The position numbers and the translations under genes were made by a program. Positions 4,847-53,051 of a stretch of DNA of 61,531 nt are shown here, piece after piece (within the stretch, counting starts at the first letter, position 1; every line of letters begins with the position of its first letter). The notes under the pieces are model-generated. The model saw nothing but the letters and a program-made list of their open reading frames with translations. It ran no database searches and had not been told where the DNA came from. The DNA comes from a virus: the IMG/VR virus record IMGVR_UViG_3300049157_000049, positions 1-61,531 of that record. One strand, given 5' to 3'.

Positions 4847-6235
4847 ATGAAAGAGATCCAACGTAAGATGCTAGACCATTTTCGGGTGACCATACTCGAG
4901 AACAAGTATATCCCAGTCAAGCCGTTTTCTAAACAGGCACAGTTTATTATGTCTCCTCAGCGCGAAGGGCTATACGGTGGTGCCGCATTTGGGGGTAAAT
5001 CGGTATGCTTGGCGATGTGCGCATTACAATATGTCGATGTGCCTGGATATAACGCTGTGTTATTTCGTAGAACTAATCCCCAATTGACACGCGCTGATGG
5101 GCTAGTGCCGCTTTTGGAGAGTTGGCTATTGGATTCGGATGCGCGGTATAACAAAACTCAACGTCTGTGGACTTTTCCATCCACTGCGACATTACGGCTA
5201 GACCAATTGCAGCATGACCATACGGTGCATGAACATCAGGGTGCACAGTACCAATTTATTGGGTTCGATGAGCTAACGCATTTTTACGAATCACAATACA
5301 GATATATGATGTCTCGGCTCCGCAAGCCAAAAGAGATGAACGTCCCTTTGCGCACTCGCAGCACCGCTAACCCTGGTGGACTAGGCCATAACTGGGTGTA
5401 TGACCGTTTTGTGAATCCTGAAACTGCGAAGGATCCAGAACGCAAAAAGCGCGTATTCGTACCCGCTCGTGTGGAGGATAACGTTGCGGCGGATGTTGAT
5501 GAATACGATAAGACACTACAGAACCTTACAAAAATTGACTACACGCGACTGCGTCACGGAGACTGGACGTCACAAAAGCCCGGAGAGATTATCACCATAG
5601 AGATGATCCAAGAGAATTTGATAAACCCCTCTGACATTCCTAAGAGCATTCGCCTGATTAGGTACTGGGATTTAGCGAGCTCGGCTATAACGGAGAGCAA
5701 CCGTGACCCGGATTGGACGGCGGGCGCCTTAGTGGGTGAATCGGAACGGATGTTTTATGTGGTGAATGTTAAAAGGTTTCGTGAGGAGCCCTATAAAAGA
5801 GATTTAAGGATTCGAGGGACGGCACGCACGGACGGCAAAGATATTACAGTTTGGTTCCAGCGGGACCCGGGTCAAGCTGGTAAAAGTCAGATCTTTACGT
5901 TCCAGCGTGATGTGCTGCCTGAGTTTTTGGTCGAAGGGGACCCAAAGCGTACGTCGAAGGTTATCGATTGGGAGTTCATCGCGCAGAAGCTCGAAGCGGG
6001 ACTTGTCAAGATCGTGAAAGGGCCTTGGAATATGGAAATGGAAACCGAGTTTTGCGAGCTGACGAGAGACGACCAGCACGCGCATGACGACATGGCCGAT
6101 GCCGTGAGTGGAGCTTTACGCGTGCTGGCCGAAAGTGAAGCGGCTTACGTGAGTTTTGAGCCTCCCTCGGGGTCTCTCGATGACGACGAAAGGGAAGAAG
6201 AAGGGGACGATAGCGTCGAATTCGCTTTCGTCTGA
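4847..6235 (+). CDS. terL: Terminase large subunit
   Basis: ATP-driven DNA packaging motor and headful/site nuclease. ATG at 4847 is preceded by an AGGAT site; the frame is open further upstream but without a ribosome site. Residues about 43-52 form the Walker A-like YGGAAFGGKS, and about 138-149 the Walker B YQFIGFDELTHF. ATPase coupling motif TRSTANPGGLGHNW follows. The C-terminal RNase H-fold nuclease shows RYWDLASS with an acidic DWTAGALVG and the late acidic HDDMADAVSGAL. Length (462 aa) is normal. It is the only plus-strand gene within the minus-strand lysis region, and its small subunit is far away (23892), which is unusual. Confidence 0.95.
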   Translation: MKEIQRKMLDHFRVTILENKYIPVKPFSKQAQFIMSPQREGLYGGAAFGGKSVCLAMCALQYVDVPGYNAVLFRRTNPQLTRADGLVPLLESWLLDSDARYNKTQRLWTFPSTATLRLDQLQHDHTVHEHQGAQYQFIGFDELTHFYESQYRYMMSRLRKPKEMNVPLRTRSTANPGGLGHNWVYDRFVNPETAKDPERKKRVFVPARVEDNVAADVDEYDKTLQNLTKIDYTRLRHGDWTSQKPGEIITIEMIQENLINPSDIPKSIRLIRYWDLASSAITESNRDPDWTAGALVGESERMFYVVNVKRFREEPYKRDLRIRGTARTDGKDITVWFQRDPGQAGKSQIFTFQRDVLPEFLVEGDPKRTSKVIDWEFIAQKLEAGLVKIVKGPWNMEMETEFCELTRDDQHAHDDMADAVSGALRVLAESEAAYVSFEPPSGSLDDDEREEEGDDSVEFAFV

Positions 6236-6779: not shown

Positions 6780-7070
6780 CTAGTCATCTTTGTGTATAAC
6801 ATCCACTAGCACATCCCCGTGACATGTTAGCGGTGTACACCAGCATCCAAGTGTTTTGCCCCGAAGTTGCTTCTTTGCGGCGCGGATTAGGTCCGGTTGC
6901 ATGTTAAGCCACATGCGATATTTGTGTATGACCTTTCGTCGATCGCCGTGGATACCGATCACGAAAGGATTGCCCCATTTGGACGGTCGTCCAATGTAAA
7001 CATCGAATTTTGCCTTTTTGCAGTGGACAACCCGGGTTTTACCGGGTCTCTTTCCATGCGGCAGGGTCAT
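6780..7070 (-). CDS. DUF4326-like protein
   Basis: MTLPHGKRPGK start chosen to give the usual compact domain. The pattern VVHCKKAKFDVYIGRPSKWG, NPF, GDR, and then LRGKTLGCWC with PLTCHGDVL is the signature of DUF4326, a small domain found in phages and bacteria and predicted to act on nucleic acid or nucleotides; two conserved cysteines and a histidine near the end look like catalytic or metal residues. Function unknown. Confidence 0.75.
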   Translation of the reverse strand: MTLPHGKRPGKTRVVHCKKAKFDVYIGRPSKWGNPFVIGIHGDRRKVIHKYRMWLNMQPDLIRAAKKQLRGKTLGCWCTPLTCHGDVLVDVIHKDD

Positions 7071-7144
7071 AGGACCGGTTCTCCCCCACAAAAATCTGGT
7101 AGGCGTAACATAGTATCCAGAGTAGCGGATATAAGATTACGTAC

Positions 7145-8482
7145 CTACACAGGACTTTTGAAAAATTTGTCAGCAAACTCCTTAGACCGCATGAGAGCGT
7201 CACGGAGACGAGCCTCTGACATGTGCCCTGACTTGAGACGTTCATTGTAGTGTTTTAGTCCTTCGATGTCGGCGTCCCGTTGGAGGATATCCCGGTAGGC
7301 AGCTGTGATGATATGCCCATACGGAAAATAAGGGATCTCGGGGTCCGGACTAGGGTCCGGTCCGGGAGACGGTTGTGCGCCACTCAGGTACTGCTCGATC
7401 TTGTTTAGCTCGCGATCCGGGTCCGAAGCCATACCCTCAAAATCGTGCATACAAAACGAGATTCCGTTTTCGAGAGTTTGTTCCATGAAGTCGATGTACT
7501 TTTGTACCTCGGTAGTCGTTGACGCCGGCCGAAACATCTCTTTTCCAGGCGGGAACGCTTTGCCAGGATCAGGTCCGGGCAGGGAGCGGGATTCCCACGC
7601 GGTGAGATCCATGTAATGCATCGATTCCGAGTAATAACGGATTTCGGTCTCCGGGCCGAGGTTGGTGCGCTCCCACCACCTGCCGTTGCGGGTCGGGTGG
7701 ATTACCCAGATATCGGCGCCGTCCGGCCGGCCCACCGTGTACTCTACGGTGTTTCGGCCCCCGTGATCCGCCATAACGAGCCCCTCCGGCCACTGCTCGG
7801 GCTTGCCGTTTTTCACTCGGCGGTGACGCACGAACTGCATGTTGAGCTCATCGAGCACCGCTTGCCGGGCCTGTTGCTGGGATTTCCCCGCAGCGCGCTC
7901 TTGCTTGAATCCATTCTGGTGCGCATCCCATTCGTTAATGAGCGAGTGGAAGAGGTTGTTCCCGCCGCGTTCCTGCTCGATCTCGCGCATCAAACGGGCT
8001 GTCTGCCGCGCGCAGTGGCCGATGACTTCGTACGGCACGCCGTCCGTGTGCTTCAGCGTCGCGTTGGTGACATACTCCGCGACGAGCCCGAATTCTTGGA
8101 GGATATCGACGAGAGCGGTGATCATTTGCCGGTTGAGCGGCGTGACTTCGCGGGGCCGATGACCCCGCTTGAGCGCGTTGATGTCCCAGACACCGTTGTT
8201 CCAGGGATACTGCCCGAAAAAGGGGTGATCGCCCGGGCGCTGCTCGTGGAGATCCCCCCAGTCCGCCGTTTCGCCGAAAACTCGCATCCCGTGGAATCCG
8301 AGGTCTTTGACGCGTTTCGCCCAGCGGCGCGCCTTGTCGAGCGGGTTGCCGCCGCGAGGGGAACCGCTCAAATGCTGGTTGAGCCACGCCATAAATTTGA
8401 ACGAGCTCCGCATACGGAGAACGGTCGGCCGGCCGTTGAGAGCAAAGAGGTTATCTTCCCGTCTGACTGAGATTTTTTCCAT
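7145..8482 (-). CDS. TIM-barrel glycoside-hydrolase-like protein with DUF4214 tail
   Basis: The first 360 residues look like a GH5/GH39-type TIM barrel: FHGMRVFGETADWGD near strand 2, then NLFHSLINEWDAHQNG with the N-E pair typical of the acid/base residue, and a later YYSESMHYMD glutamate as a possible nucleophile. A Pro-rich linker (PSPGPDPSPDPEIPYF) leads to a C-terminal DUF4214-like helical domain (AAYRDILQRDADIEGLKHYN, ...SKEFADKF). It lies next to the holin candidate. It could be a polysaccharide depolymerase, a virion hydrolase, or the lytic enzyme; I cannot choose. Catalytic assignment is inferred from motif placement. Confidence 0.6.
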   Translation of the reverse strand: MEKISVRREDNLFALNGRPTVLRMRSSFKFMAWLNQHLSGSPRGGNPLDKARRWAKRVKDLGFHGMRVFGETADWGDLHEQRPGDHPFFGQYPWNNGVWDINALKRGHRPREVTPLNRQMITALVDILQEFGLVAEYVTNATLKHTDGVPYEVIGHCARQTARLMREIEQERGGNNLFHSLINEWDAHQNGFKQERAAGKSQQQARQAVLDELNMQFVRHRRVKNGKPEQWPEGLVMADHGGRNTVEYTVGRPDGADIWVIHPTRNGRWWERTNLGPETEIRYYSESMHYMDLTAWESRSLPGPDPGKAFPPGKEMFRPASTTTEVQKYIDFMEQTLENGISFCMHDFEGMASDPDRELNKIEQYLSGAQPSPGPDPSPDPEIPYFPYGHIITAAYRDILQRDADIEGLKHYNERLKSGHMSEARLRDALMRSKEFADKFFKSPV

Positions 8483-8492
8483 GATTTTGCCC

Positions 8493-8726
8493 CTAGTCTT
8501 TCATGTGCATCCGTGCGGCGGCCGCGCGGGATTCCCGTGCTTTCCATGACGCGAACAGCGTACCGACAAGAACGATCGCGGATTCGATGACAGGCCGGAG
8601 CTCCCCGAGGAACTCGTTCGCACCTACCGGTACGTCGACGAAAAACGACAAGACGAGCAGAATGAAGCCCGTCACAGTGGCCCATTTCACTTTGCTGGAT
8701 ATGAGAGTCATTAGAGGTTGTCTCAT
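8493..8726 (-). CDS. Holin candidate, 77 aa
   Basis: ATG at 8726 follows AAGGAGA. Two membrane segments (WATVTGFILLVLSFFVDV and VIESAIVLVGTLFASW) separated by a short acidic loop, with a charged C-terminus (KARESRAAAARMHMKD), fit a class II holin. It is followed at 10 bp by the glycoside-hydrolase-like gene. Confidence 0.6.
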   Translation of the reverse strand: MRQPLMTLISSKVKWATVTGFILLVLSFFVDVPVGANEFLGELRPVIESAIVLVGTLFASWKARESRAAAARMHMKD

Positions 8727-8751
8727 GATGTGTCTCCTTGATGTAATATGA

Positions 8752-8976
8752 CTACTTTGACAGTTTCTTGCGGCCAGGCTTTGGCGGATGGCGCTCCCGA
8801 CGATGCTTAAGAACTTCAACCTCCTCACGATCCAGCAACATGTTGCCGGAGATTGTGATGTATTCCAGCGTCCCGGCCATGCAGTACGACCGGACGGAGG
8901 ATACGGACACGCCAAGAATCTTAGCTGCGTCGGTCACCGACAGCAGATTTTCTTGAAGATGCGCCATATTCAGCAT
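8752..8976 (-). CDS. MerR/excisionase-type helix-turn-helix protein, 74 aa
   Basis: LLSVTDAAKILGVSVSSVRS is a winged helix-turn-helix of the HTH_17 (excisionase/MerR-like) type, followed by a recognition-wing region (YCMAGTLEYITISGNMLLDR) and a basic tail (KPGRKKLSK). It probably binds DNA as a small regulator. Its promoter (8983-9011) puts +1 on the A of the ATG, so the mRNA may be leaderless; no Shine-Dalgarno site is visible. It is divergent from the 9116 gene and may control both promoters. No integrase was seen, so a recombination directionality role is less likely. Confidence 0.75.
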   Translation of the reverse strand: MLNMAHLQENLLSVTDAAKILGVSVSSVRSYCMAGTLEYITISGNMLLDREEVEVLKHRRERHPPKPGRKKLSK

Positions 8977-8982
8977 GTATCG

Positions 8983-9011
8983 AGTCTAGCGAACAAACCT
9001 TGCGCAGTCAA
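8983..9011 (-). promoter_or_regulatory. Promoter of the HTH gene (leaderless arrangement)
   Basis: TTGACT (9011-9006), 17-bp spacer, TAGACT (8988-8983); +1 predicted at 8976, which is the A of the start codon. Confidence 0.7.
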
Positions 9012-9038
9012 CAGCGTATTAGCGTAAAGATTTAATGG

Positions 9039-9067
9039 TTGACTTATATGCTACATAGTGGTACAGT
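9039..9067 (+). promoter_or_regulatory. Divergent promoter for the 9116 plus-strand block
   Basis: TTGACT (9039-9044), 17-bp spacer, TACAGT (9062-9067); predicted +1 about 9074, 42 bases before the first ATG. Its -35 lies 28 bp from that of the leftward promoter, so a regulator bound here could act on both. Confidence 0.7.
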
Positions 9068-9115
9068 GTTTTAAGCCATGTAACACCTTGTAAACCCAAT
9101 AGTTAGGGGGCTGAT

Positions 9116-9322
9116 ATGACTAAAATTGTCAAGATCACAAATACGATCGCTTGGTTTGAGGGCATCGCGGAAGCGGTTGAAACTAAGCTCGATAGGCAGC
9201 AAGACGAGCTCGTACAGCTCAGCGTGCGCATCCGGGACAGCAAATCGCAGCTTGACCGTCTCCGGGGTGCCATCCAGCGCGCGCGGAGTCGCGGAGATGT
9301 GGAAATGACGGTGGAGGCGTGA
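9116..9322 (+). CDS. Small coiled-coil protein, 68 aa
   Basis: Unrecognised. ATG preceded by TAGGGGG. From residue 22 the sequence is a continuous charged helix (KLDRQQDELVQLSVRIRDSK) with a heptad-like pattern, likely an oligomeric coiled coil. First gene of the rightward early block; stop is adjacent to the next ATG. Confidence 0.65.
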   Translation: MTKIVKITNTIAWFEGIAEAVETKLDRQQDELVQLSVRIRDSKSQLDRLRGAIQRARSRGDVEMTVEA

Positions 9323-41476: not shown

Positions 41477-42484
41477 TTACTCATCTGGTAGAATAAGGGC
41501 GGAGAGGGGCCGAACGTATGAAAGGACGCGCACCTGTATCTCACCAAACACCGGCCCTGTGGCGGCCTGAGAGACATCGATCCGTAACAGCCCGTTGTCT
41601 ACCCCCGATCCCGAGCTCGGAGCGAGACAGCGGCGCGCGTAGGACGTGGCATCGGGTATTTTGCGCGCGGCATTGTCGGATGTGGAGAGTGTCGGCCCGG
41701 TCGCGTACATGTCCACCCAAGAGGACCCGTCCCATTTGAAAACGTCTAAGTTTATATCAGTGTTAGGGTTAGCGTCCGTGAAGAGTCCCACATCTTCCAC
41801 ACGCGCCGCGTCCCAAATACGATGCAGGAGCTTGGCGCCCGTCGTGATCCCTGATCCGAACTGGTAGTTGAACGTCTCGCGTCTCGGGATTGCCGGGATT
41901 GTGTCTGCGGGTGGAACGGCACCGATTAGAACCGTAGGCTGAGAGACGTACATGTCGCCAGTAGCGGCCAGCTCCGCCTGCAGAATGAGCTTGTCAGCGT
42001 TCGCGGCGATGGTGTGAGTCAGAGTCATCAACTGCCAGTCGTCATCGCCGTCGTGGGCGTCTGTGCGCGTCGGTGAGCCTGTGCCGCCGTCATTCAGCGC
42101 GATCTTGGCGTTTGTGGAGTCGGATTTGACCCAGACTGCGACGACGATCGGCACGCCATCGAGCCCGTCGTCATAGGATGCGGTGGTCAAGATGTTGTAA
42201 TCGAGCGAGTCCGTACCCGAACCCGAGTAGGTCATTTTCGTTGCGAAATCCCCCTTTTTCCGAGTGGTATCCGCGAGCCCGGTCCCGGTGCGCGCGATCG
42301 TCGGGCTGCCTGACTTTCCCCAGAGAGCCGGGGGGTTGGCGTCTCCGTTGTGCCAGATGAGGAAATCGGAATTCGCGATGAGGTTGATGCCGAACAGGGA
42401 TTGGTCAATAGCCTGAAAGTTGCTCCGGACGTCCGCCGAGACGGTTTTGGCGCCGTCTGCAGGCTTGTTGCGGTTGTAGGTCAT
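41477..42484 (-). CDS. Tail fibre/receptor-binding-type protein, 335 aa
   Basis: MTYNRNKPADGAKTVSADVR resembles the N-terminal collar of short tail fibres; LIANSDFLIWHNGDANPPALWG then a carbohydrate-binding-module-like jelly roll (VVAVWVKSDSTNAKIALNDG, WQLMTLTHTIAANADKLILQ). The C-terminal 130 residues look like a separate beta domain. Likely exposed at the tail tip. Confidence 0.6.
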   Translation of the reverse strand: MTYNRNKPADGAKTVSADVRSNFQAIDQSLFGINLIANSDFLIWHNGDANPPALWGKSGSPTIARTGTGLADTTRKKGDFATKMTYSGSGTDSLDYNILTTASYDDGLDGVPIVVAVWVKSDSTNAKIALNDGGTGSPTRTDAHDGDDDWQLMTLTHTIAANADKLILQAELAATGDMYVSQPTVLIGAVPPADTIPAIPRRETFNYQFGSGITTGAKLLHRIWDAARVEDVGLFTDANPNTDINLDVFKWDGSSWVDMYATGPTLSTSDNAARKIPDATSYARRCLAPSSGSGVDNGLLRIDVSQAATGPVFGEIQVRVLSYVRPLSALILPDE

Positions 42485-43202: not shown

Positions 43203-44324
43203 TCACGCTTTGTAGCTGAGCTTGCCCTCAATTTTAGCACCTAAATGAAGCCCTGCAAAGATCGATTGCATCGACTGGCACCAGCCGGGAGCGATGTCGT
43301 AGCGGTTTTTCGGGTCATGGCCATCCTGTCCTATGTAACGACAGTGGCATCCACCAAAACTGACAGGGTTCGCCGCGCAGTCCCCACAATCGAAGCCCTT
43401 TGGTGTCCGCATCTGGGAGTTTTTGATCCCACTGACTTCTGTAAGTCGGGTCTGGTTAATGACGGGGTCGTGGAATACGTCACCCACTTTGTAATATTCT
43501 GCGGTGCCTTCCGCCACACCCGGCTCGAACGCTTTGAACGCCATCTCTTGGCTCGGGTACAGATAGCCTTCCGGTGTTAACGCAAGCATTGATAGCCCAG
43601 TTCCGCACGGCTGCAGAGGTTTTGAACTACGAATGTAAGTTTCGTAGAATTTACCAGCCCAATTTGATGACATGGATTTCCGTATGCACAACCGCATCAC
43701 CCGCTTCATGAAATCTTGTAGCATGATTCGGGACTCCGGCTTCCATTCTTTGAGCCAATTGATGTTGAAATTTAGTTTCTTGAATCCGCGGTCGATCATC
43801 CAGTGGAGATCATCTGTCGAGAATGGAACATCTGGGTCAAGTTGCCAAGCGATCTCGAGACCGGGTCTCCATTTGAGTAGGGACTCGGGGTCTATTACGT
43901 CCCATGAAGGTTTTCCTTTGTAGTAGAAACGCTGCTTGTCGTGTATCCATGGTGGGCCGTCGAGAGACAGTAGCATCCCTACCTTATGGCTATCCATGAA
44001 TGACATAAAATCATCGTCGAGCATGGTGCCGTTTGTGGTGATTGACCATTTCAAATTAAGAGGGGAGTTAGACCATTCCGTCACGACCTTTTTGATGAGG
44101 GGTTTATTGAGAAGGGGTTCGCCTCCATACCAAATGATGTTGAGGTTTTTGTCCTTCTTACACCAATCGTTGATGAGCCATTCAAACGCGCGATCGGCAG
44201 TCCTTGGCGGCATCATCTTGAATAGTCCCGCATTCTTTTGCCATTTCCATTGGTGACTGCCCTGGTAGCAATAACTACAATCCAAGTTGCATGTTCTCGT
44301 GTTGACAAGCCAAAGTGTTTTCAT
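43203..44324 (-). CDS. Radical SAM/SPASM peptide-modifying enzyme
   Basis: Start MKTLWLVNTRTCNLDCSYCY at 44324, whose ATG overlaps the stop of the Cys-repeat tail gene (TAATG). The 4Fe-4S/SAM motif is C12-x3-C16-x2-C19; the GGE motif appears as IIWYGGEPLL, and SITTNGTML and LLSLDGPPW are the later barrel strands. The C-terminus is SPASM-like: PCGTGLSMLALTPEGYLYP, then GFDCGDC...GGCHCRY and APGWCQSM for auxiliary clusters. 373 residues matches anaerobic sulfatase-maturase/RiPP maturases, which act on Cys or Ser side chains. Coupled translation marks the neighbouring cysteine repeats as the probable substrate (thioether crosslinks or Cys oxidation). Confidence 0.88.
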   Translation of the reverse strand: MKTLWLVNTRTCNLDCSYCYQGSHQWKWQKNAGLFKMMPPRTADRAFEWLINDWCKKDKNLNIIWYGGEPLLNKPLIKKVVTEWSNSPLNLKWSITTNGTMLDDDFMSFMDSHKVGMLLSLDGPPWIHDKQRFYYKGKPSWDVIDPESLLKWRPGLEIAWQLDPDVPFSTDDLHWMIDRGFKKLNFNINWLKEWKPESRIMLQDFMKRVMRLCIRKSMSSNWAGKFYETYIRSSKPLQPCGTGLSMLALTPEGYLYPSQEMAFKAFEPGVAEGTAEYYKVGDVFHDPVINQTRLTEVSGIKNSQMRTPKGFDCGDCAANPVSFGGCHCRYIGQDGHDPKNRYDIAPGWCQSMQSIFAGLHLGAKIEGKLSYKA

Positions 44325-47300
44325 TATAGATCTTCGTCTCCGGACTCTCTGCCTGATTGACAGATTGACTGACATTGCGATTGGCAATGGGTTTGACACC
44401 CTACCTGACAGTTCAGTTCACACGTAGATTGGCAATTCAACTCACAGTTAGATTGACAGCTAACCTCGCATGTAGACTGGCACGTTACCTGGCACCCGGT
44501 CTGGCAAGTGATTTGGCAACCAGACTGGCACCCTTGTTGGCAAACAGTTTGACATGACGATTCACACGGTGATTGGCAACCGAGCTCACAAGCTGTTTGG
44601 CAGGAAGACTCACACGGAGTTTGACAGCCCCCGCCCTCACACCCTCCCTGACAAGCAAGCTCACACGTAGCCTGACATGAGCTTTGACATGTGTCCTGAC
44701 AAGTCAGCTCGCACGTCGATTGACAGGCAAGTTGACAGGTATCTTGGCACGCACTCTGGCATGCAATTTGACATGATGCTTCGCAAGTCTCTTGGCAAGC
44801 GATTTCGCACGTATCCTGGCACGATTGTTGGCACGTTGACTGACAGGATGATTGACAGAATCCTTGACACTCATTAACACACGCTTGGCTCGCAACCGTT
44901 ACGCGATCGTCAGTCGCGGTGAACTGTACCAGGCCCGACAGCGCGTCTTTCGATAGAGATATAATCCGGAAAATTTCATTTGAGATTTGGCCCGACTTAC
45001 CGAGTCCTCTTCGCTTCAAGATCTTAAACTTGTCACCTACTTCCTTGCGCATCAACTTCCCCCCGATGACTGTGCCTTGTATCTTGCGCGCAGCAGATGA
45101 TGACAGTTCGAGAATCCGTGACGCTAAGGACTCCGCATTGTCCGTGATCTTTAGATACGTCTCTACAGGTTTTATGTCCGGACGTCCCAGTAATACGGAA
45201 ACTGACGTGTCGGAGCGTTCAACGGACTCAAACGTACCGCGCGAGGGGTCTTGGTCGAAATCCACACGGATCTTAGCGAATACCTCATTTGAGGCTCTTG
45301 ACGAAGAGAAATCAGAAATATCGTAATCAAACACAGTAGTTATATTGTCGGCTACTGTACCTACATAAATCTGATAGAAGATTTTGCCTGAGCCATCAAT
45401 GATGATGTTCCCGAGATTACTACGCTCCAATGTGTCAAAGATTTCGCTTGTGCTTGTGCTTTCACGGAGATAGATGCTAAGAGATTCCGCAGCGGTATCT
45501 CGAGCGAACAAAAAGCTAGTCGTGTCGATTGCGCTCGACGGTTTACCCATGAAGCGCACAAGGAGCGTCTGGAGAATGTCGGCCCCTATCTCAATAAGAG
45601 CATCTGCGGTGCCCGTGAAGGTTCCGCTAGCGTCGTCTCGATACCCTTTAGCGTCCGTTCGCAGGATGTGATCGCGATCAACGTCGTCAAATATTGCGTT
45701 GTCGGCTTCATAGCTTAGCGACCCCGTGTTGTCGTCCCCGAGATTGAACCCTAGCAGCCCCCAACCAGTGGAGCTAGAATGGGACCCCGTTTTTGTAAGT
45801 AGGTTAGCAGTTCCGGCATCCTTTGAAACCGTGATTTGATGCGTGGTATTACTGTATGCACAATTCCAGTCGGCCGCGCCAGCGTCTCTTAGCTGCGTCT
45901 GCACATGTGCTGCTAAAGACTGCGCCGTGTAGAGTCCCGACGTCAACTCGGCGGTAAGCTCCGCACCCCCTTCATTGAAGTCCAAACGAGAGTTGGTGTC
46001 GAGCACGCGGTATGGACCCACATCGCGAGAGATAGTGAATCTACCGTTGTCAACATCCGTTGTATAGTCTGTCCCATCGACAAGCTCTAGCCGCTCGGTC
46101 GTTAACCTTAACCCTGCGAATTCCTCAGACGTGTAAGCATAGACTGTGGTTATTTCTTTGATACCGTTTGGGGCTCTACTTACATCCGCGACCTCATAGA
46201 CCCCATAATCGTTTGCAGTTACGTTTACACGAAAAGGTGTGATGTTGGATTTCACCCCGAAAAATACAGGTTTTATACGTCCGTCAGTTTTTGTAAGGCT
46301 TAAATTGGGAAGGTCGTCTTCAGAATAGAGATCCGTCGCAATCTGCTGATGGAAGAACGTTCGCTCGTCATCCAAATCGAACGTCGCTATGTCATCTGTG
46401 ATGTTGATGCGCTGGATTAGGCCTGTCATTTGAGCGAAATACTGGTTGACGTCGAGCTCAACAGTCGTTCCATCAGACGCCTCAATGGCACCCCCGATCT
46501 TGACGATGACAGACTGACTCATCCATTGTAGTTCGGCAACCAAACGTTCGATGAATCCATCGGAATTGATTAACGACACGTCCCCACTACCTATTTGTTT
46601 CCCTGCGAAATAGATATCAGGCGAACCCGTCTCAAGACTAGGGATGGAGGAATTGGAGACCCGGGGGTCATAAGGGTAGTAACGATAGATTCTCTCCATC
46701 ACGATACCGTCATACAACACGATCGATGTACCGCTGCCGCCCGATTTGGTTTCGAACGTTACGACATGATTACCACTACTCTCTGCGCGAAAATCCACGA
46801 TGAATCGTTTCCAAGCGTCTCCGGTATTGTTGAGGTCAATATCTCCATCAAAACTCGCAACGTCTTCCCAATTGGTCCCGTCTGTGTGTACAAATGCATT
46901 GGGTGTTGCGAAGTTATCACGGACCCGTATTACCCCCTGCGTGGCGTTCGTGCCTATCGTTTTGTAATACCCGTGTAGACGATAACGGTGGCCGGAAACT
47001 AATGTAATGTTCCCTGTAGTTAGAATAGTCTGCCCACCGACTGTTGTATCAGCCGCTGTAAGCCTCGCTGCGGAAGAATTTATCTTTACGTCAGTGGTTT
47101 CTTCGTCGACGGTGCCCGTTCCTGTCTTGGTGAAATTGTCAGGCGAGCCTCCAGTCCAATTTTCAAAGTCCCCGTTTGTTACGAGATTGTTGCCGGATAG
47201 ATCGGGAAGAATTAGTGCTTTTGACGCGAAATGAAATGGCACAACGGCGGCTACTGTGGTGTCTGACGGATCGCTGCCATCCGAAAGATTGACGTAGAGC

Positions 47301-48349
47301 TGTCGCACTTGGTCCCAACAATTAATGACGGTCCCGGGGCCGGTCCCTGTCGCGGTTGTTCCCGCAGATGTGAAATCGCCGCTGCTACCCCGATTGCTGG
47401 TGAAGTCCCCATTCACGAAAAAGATGAGCGGCTGCACGCCGTCCGCAAGGGAGCCATCTTCGCCAAGATTTTTTGGCGTACTCCCAGAGAAAAACTTGGC
47501 TAGCTCGGTTGAATCATTCGGATTATGTAGTACTGGATGGAACCACAGATTCGCCAGCTCACCGTTTAGTTGTTGAGTGCCCGCTAGTTGCCCGATTTCG
47601 TACTCACCCCCGGTCAAATCGATATCGTTCGCGGGGCTAGCTGTGGACGATCCGACAACTACACCGTCAACCGCTACGTAGGTTGTTGCTGATGTATCGA
47701 AACCTACCATAACATGATGCCAGTCCCCATCCGCCGTAACAGTGACTGAGCTGGTGATGGTAAACATCGTGTTATTTGACGAATCTTTTGCTATGACACG
47801 GATATTGTCGTCATTGTCACGTAGCACGTTGATCCGACCGCTACCGCTAACGTTGTGTGCGAAGATTTGTTGTGTAGTCCCGTCCCCACCGTTGAATTTA
47901 ACCCACGTTGAGAAAGTAGCTACGCTGCTATCAAACGCGCCGGACAAGCTTGCTATTTCGTATTGTGTGTTTGTACCGTTGAAGACAGCGGACTCCCATG
48001 CGGGTGCATCCCAAAACGAGCCATCATCCCAGTTGATAACCGGCGCATCAAAAACCTCATCCACATCGTAGAAAAATGTCCCAACGGTCGCGATGCAATC
48101 CGCGAGGGTGTCAGCTCTTGAGAGTACCTCATCGGCGGTTTTGACGGATATCACATCGCGCACCACGTCATCAAATACGAAGTCGTGCACGGAAACGTAA
48201 GTCGTTCCTGAGTGTAACGACCAATCAGCGACTTCGACTACCGGGCGCAACTCAACAGTCGCTACGCGATTCGGGTCTGTTAAATCGAGAAGCTCATCTA
48301 GATCGGGCGAACCCGTCGTGACACCCAGCCTTCCGTTTCGTGCAGCCAT
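44324..48349 (-). CDS. Tail-tip protein with LamG domain and C-terminal CXXX repeat
   Basis: 1341 residues from MAARNGRLGVTTGS, start overlapping the upstream stop (TGATG) with AGGAG nearby. Residues about 120-300 form a LamG/concanavalin-like domain (WHHVMVGFDTSATTYVAVDG). The middle 700 residues look like a tail-tip/baseplate protein, including a module (LDFNEGGAELTAELTSGLYT...YEADN) also present in the upstream distal tail protein. Residues about 1157-1333 are 44 cysteines, each followed by Q or E (first by V), in a C-[QE]-x-x repeat broken once (CEGGGC). The end is a charged RESGDEDL. Located after the tape measure and distal tail genes, so a virion tail component, likely modified by the next gene's radical SAM enzyme. 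Confidence 0.85.
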   Translation of the reverse strand: MAARNGRLGVTTGSPDLDELLDLTDPNRVATVELRPVVEVADWSLHSGTTYVSVHDFVFDDVVRDVISVKTADEVLSRADTLADCIATVGTFFYDVDEVFDAPVINWDDGSFWDAPAWESAVFNGTNTQYEIASLSGAFDSSVATFSTWVKFNGGDGTTQQIFAHNVSGSGRINVLRDNDDNIRVIAKDSSNNTMFTITSSVTVTADGDWHHVMVGFDTSATTYVAVDGVVVGSSTASPANDIDLTGGEYEIGQLAGTQQLNGELANLWFHPVLHNPNDSTELAKFFSGSTPKNLGEDGSLADGVQPLIFFVNGDFTSNRGSSGDFTSAGTTATGTGPGTVINCWDQVRQLYVNLSDGSDPSDTTVAAVVPFHFASKALILPDLSGNNLVTNGDFENWTGGSPDNFTKTGTGTVDEETTDVKINSSAARLTAADTTVGGQTILTTGNITLVSGHRYRLHGYYKTIGTNATQGVIRVRDNFATPNAFVHTDGTNWEDVASFDGDIDLNNTGDAWKRFIVDFRAESSGNHVVTFETKSGGSGTSIVLYDGIVMERIYRYYPYDPRVSNSSIPSLETGSPDIYFAGKQIGSGDVSLINSDGFIERLVAELQWMSQSVIVKIGGAIEASDGTTVELDVNQYFAQMTGLIQRINITDDIATFDLDDERTFFHQQIATDLYSEDDLPNLSLTKTDGRIKPVFFGVKSNITPFRVNVTANDYGVYEVADVSRAPNGIKEITTVYAYTSEEFAGLRLTTERLELVDGTDYTTDVDNGRFTISRDVGPYRVLDTNSRLDFNEGGAELTAELTSGLYTAQSLAAHVQTQLRDAGAADWNCAYSNTTHQITVSKDAGTANLLTKTGSHSSSTGWGLLGFNLGDDNTGSLSYEADNAIFDDVDRDHILRTDAKGYRDDASGTFTGTADALIEIGADILQTLLVRFMGKPSSAIDTTSFLFARDTAAESLSIYLRESTSTSEIFDTLERSNLGNIIIDGSGKIFYQIYVGTVADNITTVFDYDISDFSSSRASNEVFAKIRVDFDQDPSRGTFESVERSDTSVSVLLGRPDIKPVETYLKITDNAESLASRILELSSSAARKIQGTVIGGKLMRKEVGDKFKILKRRGLGKSGQISNEIFRIISLSKDALSGLVQFTATDDRVTVASQACVNECQGFCQSSCQSTCQQSCQDTCEIACQETCEASCQIACQSACQDTCQLACQSTCELTCQDTCQSSCQATCELACQGGCEGGGCQTPCESSCQTACELGCQSPCESSCQTVCQQGCQSGCQITCQTGCQVTCQSTCEVSCQSNCELNCQSTCELNCQVGCQTHCQSQCQSICQSGRESGDEDL
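44360..44881 (-). repeat. 12-bp-period DNA repeat encoding the (C-[QE]-x-x) tract
   Basis: About 43 tandem four-codon units; TGT/TGC codons fall every 12 bases with a single 3-base insertion. Codons of the variable positions are mixed, so the tract is old or selected at the protein level and not a simple recent expansion. Confidence 0.95.
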
Positions 48350-49464
48350 CAGCCTAAAGACTCCTGAATTGGCACGGCGATGCGCCAATGGGTCGGGGGC
48401 ACTTCTGTAATAGCTAGTGGAGATGCGCTGTGACAATATAGCATATCGGTTGAGTCATTTTGCGGGTCGAAGAAAAAGAACAGCGGCCGGCCTATCCGCC
48501 GGTCCCCAGACATCGTCTCGAAACTTGTTTTGTCAGCGTTGGTCATGCCCATGAACTCGATGCTAAATTGGCGCGCAGCCTGCTTAACGTTTTGGAACCC
48601 TGCGCCTTGATCTGCTAACTGAATAGCTGTAAGCTCCACACGGTCGATCGCCATTTCGAAGGCGTGCGCCCGGGAAGGTTGAAAATAGGCGCCTACAAAA
48701 GCCACACCTATACTGTTGTACCCGGTGCTCGACTGCACATCGTCAAATTCAAGCTGCCAAAAGCGATAAGTCTGCTCACTGAAAAAATCTAAGCGGAAGG
48801 TGTCATCTGTGTTGCTATCTGCGAGCACTTGGCTGAACGCGGGAGAGATCCAGCTATCGGATGAATTGCCATGAAGGGTCACGGTCCCCGTGCTATCAAT
48901 ATTGTGGTCAAGCACGATACCCAGCTCTACCGTCTGCGCTTGGGGAAGGACATAAGTGATCCGATGGCGCGATTGGTGGCTGGCGTTATCCGCAGTGTAC
49001 GACGTAGCACCAGTGTCGTCCGCAGAGACATCGAACCCAAGATCCACACCAATAGATGTTGACGTGTTAGAACCTGTAGACCATTCAAGCCCTATCGTAT
49101 CTGACCCAGTATCTCGCGCGATTACAAATTTGTTCGTCGATGCGTTGTAGGTTACAGAATAGGTATTGTCAGTAGCCGCAGCGTCCATTTGGGTTTCAAT
49201 CTCAGCGGCCATTAACGCGCCCGTCGCGTAGTTGCCCGCTGTGATCGTTGCGGTGGCATCACCGGTGGTACCCTCGGTAAAATCTAATTTGTCATTATAC
49301 CCTGCGACGATAGTCCATCCTGTTTTCGAGCGCCATTGCTTGGAGCGCAGCTGATCAATTGAAAACTTCCCTTTGAAAGTGGGCTGCTCGCTTGATGCGG
49401 CAATCGTTGTTCCCGCGAATTGTAGGAAATTCTGCCATGCGAATCTTGGTGTGACGTCTGCCAC
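48349..49464 (-). CDS. Distal tail-like protein, 371 aa
   Basis: Starts MADVTPRFAWQNFLQFAGTT; contains the LDFTEGTTGDATATITAGNY...SYTADN module shared with the tail-tip protein. The C-terminal half (FSIEFMGMTNADKTSFETMS, RPLFFFFDPQN) is typical of phage distal tail/minor tail proteins. Placed between tape measure and tail-tip genes. Confidence 0.65.
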   Translation of the reverse strand: MADVTPRFAWQNFLQFAGTTIAASSEQPTFKGKFSIDQLRSKQWRSKTGWTIVAGYNDKLDFTEGTTGDATATITAGNYATGALMAAEIETQMDAAATDNTYSVTYNASTNKFVIARDTGSDTIGLEWSTGSNTSTSIGVDLGFDVSADDTGATSYTADNASHQSRHRITYVLPQAQTVELGIVLDHNIDSTGTVTLHGNSSDSWISPAFSQVLADSNTDDTFRLDFFSEQTYRFWQLEFDDVQSSTGYNSIGVAFVGAYFQPSRAHAFEMAIDRVELTAIQLADQGAGFQNVKQAARQFSIEFMGMTNADKTSFETMSGDRRIGRPLFFFFDPQNDSTDMLYCHSASPLAITEVPPTHWRIAVPIQESLG

Positions 49465-49472
49465 GATTCCCC

Positions 49473-52400
49473 CTAGAAATTTCTCACAGCGGACGGGTGG
49501 ATACGCATCGATCGCTGTTTGGAGCGCCGCTCGATTTCAGGAACCACCGCCCGCGCAACTTCTTTATCCCCGATCATAACAGGAACCACCAACGTAGTAG
49601 TTCCGCCGTTTCGCTGCCCGCGCCCGTCCTTGTCAAAACTGACGCGCTCGGGACCTGCCTCTCCCACGAGAAGGTTGGTGGGGCCGAATGCCGTAAAGGG
49701 CACTGCGGCGGCCGCCCGTCGCTGGCGCCGTGGGACCGGGACCTCACGGAAGCTCGGGATGGAGACGTCGGGTACCCGAATAGAGCCCGCCGCCCGAGCC
49801 GCATCCCGGAAAGTCGACTTCAAGACTCCCACTTGCTCAGCCGCTGTGCGTAGCCCCCCAACAACATCGGTTGTCATCACCGCAGTCAGATCCTTCGCCG
49901 CTTGCTGGGTGTCTTCCATGGCGGCGGTTGAGGTTTCCGCCTGGCCTTCGAGCTCAATGCCGAACGCCTCTGCCAGAGTCGTCATCCCCTCGAAATCCAC
50001 ACCGAGTCTCTCCGCAGCGCGAATCATGCGGAGAATCTGGAATTCACCAGCGGGGCCTAGCTGATCCATCACGGGGATAAGCTGCGCAACGTTGTCATTT
50101 AGGATGCGTTGCGCTTCCGACGCGGAAACTTGGCCGCGCTCCAAGAACGAAAACGTGTCCGCGATGCGCTCGGTGAACATGTCGAGATCTGCCGTACCGT
50201 CCGCCAGCGCTTCGCCGAAGATGCCCCCGAGGGAGACTTGGAGCGCCGTTTCGATGTCGCCACGGTTTTCCTTGATGCCTTCAATCGACTCCAAAAGTCC
50301 TTTAGATATAGCAGTTCCGAAGTTGTCCTTGATGGCGTCCTTGACGTTGGCCTTTTTGAAGATCTTGCCAATGAGCTTCGCGATGCCAAAGCCGCCCGCT
50401 ATCCCGCCACCGATGATAGCTGTCAGAGGATTCGTGAAGAAGCCCCCGAGGGAGCCTAGAATCCCCGCTCCGCCGCCAGCCGCCCCACCACCAAGCCCGG
50501 CGGCTCCCGCGGCGGCGCCTCCTCCTACTGTTGCCGCTCCGCCTCCCCCGCCGAAAAGCCCTCCAATCAGCCCGCCGATACCGCCAATGCCCCCAACACC
50601 GGGGACGCCACCGCCACCAATGCCCGTGATCCCCCCAAGAATTCCGCCTCCACGACCCCCTGTGAAAAGTCCGATGAGCTTGTTGACGGTACCTAGACCA
50701 GACTGAATAGTGCCGAGGAATTTCTCGACGAAGCGGATAGCCTTGCCGAGTGCAGATTCTGCAGAGACTCCGAAGTCATCCATAAGCCCCCTCAGACCAG
50801 ATGTGGCTCGCGACGACCGGTCGAGCGCCTCGTTCCATGTGGTGGTGAGCGGTGGGAGTCCCAGCAACGCCGCGTTCGCTTCCGTGCCGAACTTAGGGAG
50901 CTCCGCAGTGACGTCGCTGATCTCTTCCGGGAGACCCTTGATCGTGTCTTCCCACTCATCCGTCGTGAATACCATTCGCTCCATCGGCGGGAGGTTTGCG
51001 AGCGCTTTGCGGCCAACTTCTTCGATGCTCTTCGCCATCCGGCCGAGCTCCCCGTTGAGCTCGACCCCCTCTTGCTTCGCCGTTTTGATGATGTCCGTAA
51101 CCGAGCGGAGACCCTCCGCTGAGAGCTTCCGCCCTTGCGCATTCAAAATTTCTAGAGCTTTGTTTGTTCGTGTGATCTCTTTTTCGAGACCCCCTGTGCC
51201 GAGAGAGTCGACTAGTCCAAGCACAGAAGAATCAAGCTCATCGAATGTGTCATTGAGGTTTTTAAACGTGGTGGTAAGGTCCTGAGTAGTTTTGTCTACC
51301 TTTTTGGTTACGGACTCGCCAACCTTTGCGACCCCTTGAGATTCCCGCATCGCATTGATGTGATCGTTCATCGCTTTGCGAGCTTCTTTGAGCCCCTTCG
51401 TACTGAACTCGAATGACTTCCCTTGTTCACGGAACATGTCATTCGCTTTGCCGATGAGCCGGATGTCCTCCGCTTGGATGGGGGGATCGAGTTTACCGTC
51501 CATCGTGCGGCGAAGCCCCATCATAGATTCCATTGTGCCTGTGATGGCGTCCCGCATCCCAGTCATTTCTAGGATGAAATTCGTAGCCGCAAACGCCGCG
51601 ACGAAGACAACAAGCCCTGCGAGTATAGGATTCGCCGCAGCAAACTGCAGGAACATAGCCTTTGCGGCAATAAGAGCCTTCGCCATCCACGCAAGAAATA
51701 CTTTTCCTGCAACTGTGATTGCAGCAAACGCGATCGGAAGTTGCCCTGCTGCGGCCGTGAGCGCACCAATCGCTATGAGAAGGGGGCCGAGTGCAGCCAC
51801 TAGTAGGCCAATAACTACAATTACCGTGCGTGTTGTTTGGCTCCATTCGCCGAACCGAGTCACCATCGAAGCCAGCGACTCTAGCATCGGCTTGAAGACT
51901 TCCATCAAGTCCAGCAAAACAGGAATGAGCGCTTGACCGAGCGTGATGCCGATATCAATGATCTGATTCGCCAGCTTGATCAATTGAGACGCGAAAGTCT
52001 CAAAACGTTTCGCAGCCTCTTCATTCAACGCGCCCCCGTTTTGCGCTTGTTCCGCGGCCCTTTTCAACGCGTCGCCTAGAAGATCTGACGCGCTCGCCAC
52101 ACGCAACGATGCGTCTCTGACCCGAATCTGATTCAGCCCGAGCTCTTTCAAAACCTTGAAAGATGAGATCCCTTGCTTGTCGAGATTGCTAAGCCCTACA
52201 ACGAACGCCTCAATTGCCTTAGAGGAATCTTCCTTAAAGGCTTTCGCGAATTCGCTTGATGTCTGCCCGGCTACCGCCGCGAATTTCTGTAGTCTCGCGC
52301 CCCCCTCATCTACGGACGCCGCCAGATCGATGAACAGTCGGGAGAACGCAGTACCGCCCGCTTCCGCCTTGATACCGGCAGACGACAACACCGCACTGAA

Positions 52401-53051
52401 CGCGAGAATTTCGTCTTGACTTAGACCTATCTCTTTACCCGCCGCCGCCAGACGCAACGCAAATTCAACGATTTCGGACTCCGTCGACGCGAAATTGTTG
52501 CCGAGGTCCACGATTACATCACCGACGCGTTCGATATTGGTTCCATCTAAGCCGTCCGTGATGTTCGCAAATCTCGCAAGGGATTTCGCCGCGTCTGCAC
52601 TAGCAATATCTGTCGTGACGCCAAGCTTCGCCATGACGGTCGTAAACTCGACCAGACCATCCGCTTTGACGCCAACCTGACCGGAGACTTCCGCGATTTT
52701 GTTGAGCTCGTTCACGGCCACCGGGAGCGTTGATGTGGCCAGCTTGCGGAATTCACTCTCCAACTTAGCAAACGATGTGGTTGCGGTCTCGTTGACTGTC
52801 TTTTTGACACCGGCGAAAGAGGACTCGAAATCCGCCGCCATCTTAACGGACGCCCCCGCTATAAGGGCCATCGGCGCCGCAAGGCGTGTAATTTGTGACC
52901 CAACTTCGGTGATATCACGGCCCGCTTGGCGGACCTTTTTCGCCATCGATTGGAGGCTCTTAGGAACCCTTTTACGTTCTTTGTCGAACCCTTTTGTAAG
53001 GAGTTTTACGTCTATTGTGAGGGTGCCGAGCGATCGTGTTGGCCCTGCCAT
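49473..53051 (-). CDS. Tail tape measure protein (TP901 type)
   Basis: 1192 residues set the tail length. N-terminal LTIDVKLLTKGFDKERKRVP and the TP901-core FESSFAGVKKTVNETATTSF, SGQVGVKADGLVEFTTVMAK, AEAGGTAFSRLF. A membrane-spanning cluster at about residues 407-487, a Gly-rich low-complexity region at about 795-870, and a C-terminal region ending with RSMRIHPSAVRNF. Follows the frameshifting chaperone genes, as in lambda. Confidence 0.93.
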   Translation of the reverse strand: MAGPTRSLGTLTIDVKLLTKGFDKERKRVPKSLQSMAKKVRQAGRDITEVGSQITRLAAPMALIAGASVKMAADFESSFAGVKKTVNETATTSFAKLESEFRKLATSTLPVAVNELNKIAEVSGQVGVKADGLVEFTTVMAKLGVTTDIASADAAKSLARFANITDGLDGTNIERVGDVIVDLGNNFASTESEIVEFALRLAAAGKEIGLSQDEILAFSAVLSSAGIKAEAGGTAFSRLFIDLAASVDEGGARLQKFAAVAGQTSSEFAKAFKEDSSKAIEAFVVGLSNLDKQGISSFKVLKELGLNQIRVRDASLRVASASDLLGDALKRAAEQAQNGGALNEEAAKRFETFASQLIKLANQIIDIGITLGQALIPVLLDLMEVFKPMLESLASMVTRFGEWSQTTRTVIVVIGLLVAALGPLLIAIGALTAAAGQLPIAFAAITVAGKVFLAWMAKALIAAKAMFLQFAAANPILAGLVVFVAAFAATNFILEMTGMRDAITGTMESMMGLRRTMDGKLDPPIQAEDIRLIGKANDMFREQGKSFEFSTKGLKEARKAMNDHINAMRESQGVAKVGESVTKKVDKTTQDLTTTFKNLNDTFDELDSSVLGLVDSLGTGGLEKEITRTNKALEILNAQGRKLSAEGLRSVTDIIKTAKQEGVELNGELGRMAKSIEEVGRKALANLPPMERMVFTTDEWEDTIKGLPEEISDVTAELPKFGTEANAALLGLPPLTTTWNEALDRSSRATSGLRGLMDDFGVSAESALGKAIRFVEKFLGTIQSGLGTVNKLIGLFTGGRGGGILGGITGIGGGGVPGVGGIGGIGGLIGGLFGGGGGAATVGGGAAAGAAGLGGGAAGGGAGILGSLGGFFTNPLTAIIGGGIAGGFGIAKLIGKIFKKANVKDAIKDNFGTAISKGLLESIEGIKENRGDIETALQVSLGGIFGEALADGTADLDMFTERIADTFSFLERGQVSASEAQRILNDNVAQLIPVMDQLGPAGEFQILRMIRAAERLGVDFEGMTTLAEAFGIELEGQAETSTAAMEDTQQAAKDLTAVMTTDVVGGLRTAAEQVGVLKSTFRDAARAAGSIRVPDVSIPSFREVPVPRRQRRAAAAVPFTAFGPTNLLVGEAGPERVSFDKDGRGQRNGGTTTLVVPVMIGDKEVARAVVPEIERRSKQRSMRIHPSAVRNF

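Follow-up and report, generated by a model that had tools for sequence, protein, structure and literature searches.

We have analysed a window, i.e., positions 1 to 61,531 of the IMG/VR virus record IMGVR_UViG_3300049157_000049, in which a tail gene ending in a long cysteine repeat is followed by the gene of a radical S-adenosylmethionine (SAM)/SPASM enzyme. All window features given here lie on the minus strand. The tail gene (48349..44324, with its ATG at 48349) encodes a protein of 1341 residues, our candidate substrate, and is located directly after a gene for a 371-residue protein, behind the tape measure gene. Its Cys tract occupies residues 1157-1335 (44345..44881). The enzyme gene (43203..44324) encodes 373 residues. 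As claimed in the initial annotation, the two genes overlap: the enzyme ATG (44324-44322) shares one base with the tail stop codon TAA (44326-44324), giving taATGa. We suggest, with a probability of about 60%, that this enzyme makes a ladder of thioethers on the tract, in which each Cys is joined to the Gln or Glu five residues further on.

The 44 Cys of the tract lie within residues 1157-1330, at intervals of four residues (42 times) or five residues (once), and the initial description of about 43 C-[QE]-x-x repeats with one extra residue is thus confirmed. The residue following the Cys is Gln in 32 cases, Glu in 11 and Val in one, solely at the first Cys. The longest run of Cys with a spacing of four is 23, but never more than 9 when the same 185 residues are shuffled 20,000 times. 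Codons in the tract are mixed (TGT 25, TGC 19; CAA 20, CAG 12). In the close relatives L001 and L207, 34 tract Cys codons were compared; 17 of them show synonymous differences and none a non-synonymous one. Since half of the Cys codons have changed, all of them synonymously, selection keeps the amino acid pattern and not the DNA repeat. Thus, the tract is under purifying selection.

Pattern scans for CXXX frames were made on 2.9 million viral contigs. Many raw pattern matches are low-complexity DNA repeats. With these removed, natural C-[QE]-x-x tracts are left in a few dozen records, and records with spurious CXXX frames served as controls. A radical SAM gene (PF04055) is found in 32 of 39 natural-tract records versus 0 of 42 controls (Fisher p=4e-16). 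The set of 39 omits L027, L049 and L053, which were chosen partly for their enzyme, and keeps L127, whose tract is doubtful and possibly low-complexity and whose record has a radical SAM gene. Seven records have no PF04055 match. Five of them (G002, G007, G026, G031, G037) end in or beside the tract, the contig of G015 ends 4 kb past the tract, and in G034 a 521-residue CxxxCxxC protein is seen by tblastn. The nearest enzyme gene is on the tract strand in all loci but L212, often overlapping the tract gene or within about 50 nt of it. The initial annotation had named Cys-repeat tail proteins that regularly lack a radical SAM neighbour as evidence against its proposal, and with these counts such a pattern did not occur. 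The link between the tract and the radical SAM enzyme is strongly supported.

A natural control is provided by L237. Its tail homologue ends exactly where the tract would start (...MADDVAWAAAFVEE, then the stop codon), a fibre protein gene lies about 40 nt downstream, and there is no radical SAM gene on the contig, this being one case on a 12-kb contig. Thus, tract and enzyme are jointly present or jointly absent. When the enzyme profile alone was used for searching, one new relative, L344, was obtained. Just before its enzyme gene, in the place of the tail gene, is a 1301-residue open reading frame (ORF) that ends in 42 irregularly spaced tract Cys. In the human-gut phage contigs that were examined, the radical SAM relatives have no C[QE] tract nearby. 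In a genome collection scanned with the enzyme profile, all matches were distant SPASM enzymes, none of which had a Cys tract within 10 kb.

Where the C-[QE]-x-x repeat is strict, each Gln or Glu could be assigned to the Cys directly before it (position +1) or to the Cys five residues before it (+5). The ends of the blocks and their interruptions separate these two assignments. Of 25 Cys that end a block and have no Cys in the next ten residues, 22 have Gln/Glu at +5, and no more than 4 have it at +2 to +4 or +6 to +11. Of 28 Cys that begin a block, 8 have Gln/Glu at +1 and 25 have it at +5. Across interruptions of at least seven residues, which are not all independent since 15 of the 42 come from L182, the Cys before the gap has Gln/Glu at +5 in 41 of 42, and the Cys after it has Gln/Glu at +1 in 6 of 42 (p=5e-16). 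The initial annotation proposed thioethers between Cys and the conserved Gln/Glu or neighbouring residues; a thioether to Gln/Glu is plausible, with the residue at +5, and not the one adjoining the Cys, as the likely partner. In the window, Glu stands at +5 of the last Cys (residue 1330, CQSGRE) and the first Cys lacks Gln/Glu at +1 (CVNECQ), and therefore the tract has 44 donors and 44 acceptors. Since the Gln/Glu tracks the preceding Cys across interruptions, the repeat consists of overlapping Cys-x4-[Gln/Glu] pairs, with one acceptor per donor at +5. Gln and Glu are freely exchanged, with 47% Glu versus 40% Gln over 1610 tract Cys. Residue +3 is restricted too, being G, S, T or A in about 67%. 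When the next Cys is three residues away, Gln/Glu is at +4. L344 was not used to derive the rule, and its Gln/Glu is also commonest at +5 (29 of 42); in its CQxC[GA]Q units the second Cys finds Gln/Glu at +7 or +8.

An ORF of 385 residues in L182 (L329:12226-13380), one of several tract ORFs in this phage, has about 75 tract Cys in longer repeats. Its blocks with a spacing of four are broken at least 14 times, mostly by gaps of nine residues, with Gln/Glu held at +5.

The enzyme belongs to the radical SAM superfamily (PF04055, 46.9 bits versus a cut-off of 29.5, E=4e-12). The motif and the alignment locate its CxxxCxxC cluster motif at C12, C16 and C19 (44268..44291), GGEP is at residues 67-70, and the SPASM region runs from C240 to C349 (43278..43607), with C240, C313, C316, C326 and C349 present. 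The seven-Cys motif used for comparison was C-x9-15-G-x4-C ... C-x2-C-x5-C-x3-C ... C. The window enzyme departs from it, since Ser258 replaces the Cys of G-x4-C, Cys322 is missing, and C328 is extra. Thus, the three kinds of motif in the initial annotation (CxxxCxxC, GGEP and SPASM-type Cys) are present, but the full canonical SPASM set is not. Ser at the G-x4-C position and an extra C-x-C are features of the window group, and the middle SPASM Cys (C322) is lost in the window, L001 and L236 and retained in L160 and L165. Judging from these residues, the enzyme is a modified and not a canonical SPASM protein, and its auxiliary cluster is likely altered.

Among characterised systems, the highest family score is for the ranthipeptide maturase PapB (NCBIfam NF047865), a SPASM radical SAM enzyme like that of the window, which acts on PapA to give freyrasin. 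The window enzyme aligns over nearly its whole length at 140.5 bits, below the cut-off of 340, and is thus not a member of this family. PapB systems also have an adjacent precursor with repeated Cys-Xn-Asp/Glu, and such an array, with Gln included, is present immediately upstream of the window enzyme as Cys-x4-[Gln/Glu]. All 29 of the 29 aligned enzymes from tract-bearing phages match the PapB model with E below 1e-10. PapB forms thioethers in Cys-Xn-Asp, where n=0-6 is accepted, and also accepts Glu (PMC9413430). Like the tract, PapA has arrayed Cys motifs in which an acidic partner follows the Cys after a few residues (Cys-x3-Asp/Glu). However, the precursor PapA is a small peptide and has six motifs, whereas the window has a 1341-residue tail protein with 44 overlapping Cys-x4-[Gln/Glu] motifs, and in the tracts Gln is about as frequent as Glu at the acceptor position. 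QhpD, which modifies QhpC of quinohemoprotein amine dehydrogenase, forms three Cys-to-Asp/Glu thioethers inside a protein subunit (PMC7876137). As in our proposal, these crosslinks are in a functional protein and not in a peptide natural product. The differences are that there are only three, that a leader peptide and a protease are used, and that the subunit carries a cofactor. The window enzyme is not a member of the QhpD family (TIGR03906, 115 bits versus a cut-off of 453). The solved structure nearest to the enzyme family profile is that of CteB, a SCIFF maturase (PDB code: 5wgg, E=5e-32), which is also thioether-forming. CteB acts on a short six-Cys peptide. Its chain has about 95 residues before the radical SAM domain that the window enzyme does not have. 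PapB, QhpD and CteB are the closest characterised enzymes, and all three form Cys thioethers, which by analogy supports thioethers in the tract.

The initial annotation also mentioned radical SAM families with CXXX-repeat targets. These exist as TIGR04115 and TIGR04117, and they resemble the window in that a Cys-x-x-x repeat target adjoins a SPASM enzyme. However, the window enzyme is not a member of TIGR04115 (rSAM_Cxxx_rpt, 77.4 bits versus a cut-off of 350), nor is the tract a member of the target family TIGR04117 (35.4 bits versus 50). The enzymes of L049 and L053 pass TIGR04115 (444 and 473 bits), and L027 is just below the cut-off. The CXXX tracts beside the L049, L053 and L027 enzymes lack Gln/Glu, unlike the window. 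Since L049 and L053 have true TIGR04115 enzymes, there are at least two kinds of Cys-repeat module in phages.

Outside the tract, the carrier proteins form unrelated groups, of which the window group is one. A second large family consists of L075, L144, L218 and L229. Matches to the phage tail tip fibre family PF09327 are found in L185 and, weakly, in L200, and matches to the P2 gpI-type tail family PF09684 in L157 (E=4e-11) and, weakly, in L131. Thus, lambda-type tail tip fibres and P2 gpI proteins carry the same kind of tract and have their own radical SAM neighbour, though apart from the tract no similarity of these proteins to the window tail protein is detectable. Ordinary PF09327 and PF09684 members are not known to have a tract. 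Where they can be identified by such matches, the carriers are tail-tip or baseplate proteins. After the tract, the L185 and L200 tails continue with GGGC-[WI]-x2-GTPV-x-V-[YW]-D, which by eye is like the N-terminus of a Hint/intein domain and has no Pfam match. The tract in these two tails might be released or re-attached by self-processing.

We propose that the gene pair is a two-part module for post-translational crosslinking. As synthesised, the tail protein would end in an array of overlapping Cys-x4-[Gln/Glu] motifs, on which the co-translated enzyme would act in the reducing cytoplasm. Each Cys sulfur would be joined to a side-chain carbon of the Gln/Glu at i+5, namely a CH2 (beta or gamma) close to the carboxyl or amide group. 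A thioether from Cys to a beta or gamma carbon is the mark of the ranthipeptide class. Gln and Glu could be exchanged because the acceptor would be a CH2 near C=O in both. The product would contain up to 44 interleaved six-residue thioether rings. Such a tract may form the end of the tail protein as a stiff rod or stalk, resistant to proteases and oxidation and therefore stable outside the cell, where it would be displayed within the adsorption apparatus. We infer thioether formation, the carbon used, the completeness of the crosslinking and its mechanical or adsorption role.

Several observations weigh against this proposal. The spacing is not absolute, since Gln/Glu shifts to +6 or +7 if the next Cys follows at +5 or +6, and some tract Cys have no Gln/Glu partner (e.g., in L165 and the irregular parts of L236). 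The enzyme is far under the PapB cut-off (140 versus 340 bits), and its SPASM region lacks one canonical Cys (Ser258). No leader-binding domain was found in it, and there is no N-terminal extension to hold one. AlphaFold, which takes no account of crosslinks, models the tract as two long helices with low confidence, and a helix is not naturally stapled from i to i+5. To our knowledge, no characterised maturase uses Gln.

The alternative that survives best, though we consider it clearly less probable, is that the enzyme modifies the tract in another way. It could link Cys by a C-alpha thioether (sactionine) to the small residue that precedes the next Cys, or change Cys or the backbone in some other way, with the Gln/Glu at +5 serving for recognition. 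This would account for the restriction of residue +3, and sactipeptide maturases are in the same superfamily, though they are lower-scoring among the enzyme matches, of which the best-scoring characterised relatives bond Cys to Asp/Glu. The TIGR04115-type tracts of L049 and L053 also indicate that Cys repeats alone can be radical SAM targets. However, one Gln/Glu per Cys, surviving Cys loss and insertions, fits a bonding partner better than a generic recognition residue.

It is improbable that the tract is a self-folding rod that binds metals or iron-sulfur clusters or is rich in disulfides, while the enzyme does other work such as cofactor or tRNA chemistry. Certainly 44 Cys could bind metals or form extracellular disulfides, and the AlphaFold model is a regular helical structure, at low confidence. 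But such a rod does not explain the co-occurrence with the enzyme across unrelated tail proteins and phages, the tight adjacency, or the joint absence in L237, and all of the enzymes resemble peptide-maturase SPASM families. The free exchange of Gln and Glu in these sequences also argues against carboxylate metal ligands, as it does against Gln-only thioesters. Internal Cys-Gln thioesters that form spontaneously, like those of complement C3 and of Gram-positive thioester adhesins, would turn the tip into a chemical harpoon with a dispensable enzyme and would suit the fixed Cys/Gln spacing and the likely exposed location, but they are very improbable, because a Gln-derived thioester disallows Glu, because such bonds need folded domains and not a four-residue repeat, and because the radical SAM gene is left unexplained.

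The usual means of stabilising a virus particle are folding, disulfides, isopeptide bonds and chainmail bonds. In the open-access literature we found no account of a radical SAM enzyme acting on a phage tail or virion protein, though this does not prove absence. We put at even odds the broader claim that several unrelated lineages of tailed phages build a part of the tail tip or baseplate as a radical-crosslinked ladder, with every Cys bonded to the Gln/Glu five residues on, which would be both an undescribed virion modification and a Gln-accepting polythioether. If so, a virion part can be made in a new way, with dozens of staples put into a tail protein by a radical enzyme dedicated to it, and the chemistry of ribosomally synthesised and post-translationally modified peptides is used at the scale of a protein. 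The Cys-x4-[Gln/Glu] rule is an immediately testable prediction, and the many natural substrate lengths and spacings can be used for enzymology. Tough crosslinked rods that are genetically encoded might be made in this way, and a function is suggested for many of the radical SAM genes in phage tail regions.

The surrounding genes mark the module as a tail module. The tape measure protein is encoded at 49473..53051 (TIGR01760, E=3.4e-45; phrog_13339, E=1e-92). The 371-residue protein (48349..49464, phrog_8610) is distal-tail-like by position, and a homologue also precedes the tail gene in L001. The 1341-residue protein is assigned as a tail-tip protein by position only, from the gene order after the tape measure gene; it has no Pfam or PHROG match to tail-tip or hub families. 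A search of solved structures by sequence with the tail profile gave no match, and in cultured phages tblastn detected neither the tail nor the tract, the latter probably being masked as low complexity. Predicted structures are too poor to use, both for the non-tract part (predicted local distance difference test (pLDDT) 41) and for the C-terminal part including the tract (pLDDT 57). Residues 125-271 (47537..47977) match the concanavalin-A-like domain Laminin_G_3 (Pfam, E=2.2e-14), an insertion that appears as an alignment gap in the L001 relative.

Relatives of the tail protein are found in five other viral contigs (35-46% identity). Orthologous pairs of tail and enzyme are present in L001, L236, L160 and L165, in which the tails are 35-46% and the enzymes 46-58% identical to those of the window. 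A tail fibre/spike-type protein of 335 residues (41477..42484, phrog_15641) has a relative directly after the radical SAM gene in L001 and L236 and directly after the tail gene in tract-less L237. Since the fibre relative follows the enzyme in L001 and L236, the conserved unit is just the tail and enzyme genes. The alignment of relatives also reveals a segment, DDRVTVAS, just before the tract (44888..44911). Its DDxVTVA is invariant in six aligned tract-bearing relatives and degenerate in L237. Given this conservation, the segment is a possible recognition (leader-like) element. The capsid and polymerase relatives are so distant and mixed that no host can be named from them.

Further arrangements were seen in other phages. 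In a 172-kb phage, a radical SAM enzyme (L329:4169-6721, minus strand) has an apparent intein at a SPASM cysteine (CGSGCFTGDTGVKM...VVVGNCREDSL). Three consecutive radical SAM genes lie beside a Cys-tract gene in L154 (1000-3485), and a 1079-residue Cys-tract ORF in L186 (2122-5358) has a weak thioredoxin-like match at residues 493-536. The cultured Erwinia phage vB_EamM_Caitlin (KX397365; L337) has two radical SAM genes, gp172 and gp171, among its virion genes (5101-5894, 7070-9308), and two short ORFs near them have Cys-rich CS/CT/CG-x-x tracts (CGGTCSWSCSNGCSASC...). A similar tract is present in L023, together with a CNLNCSFCGG enzyme. vB_EamM_Caitlin is thus a possible laboratory model.

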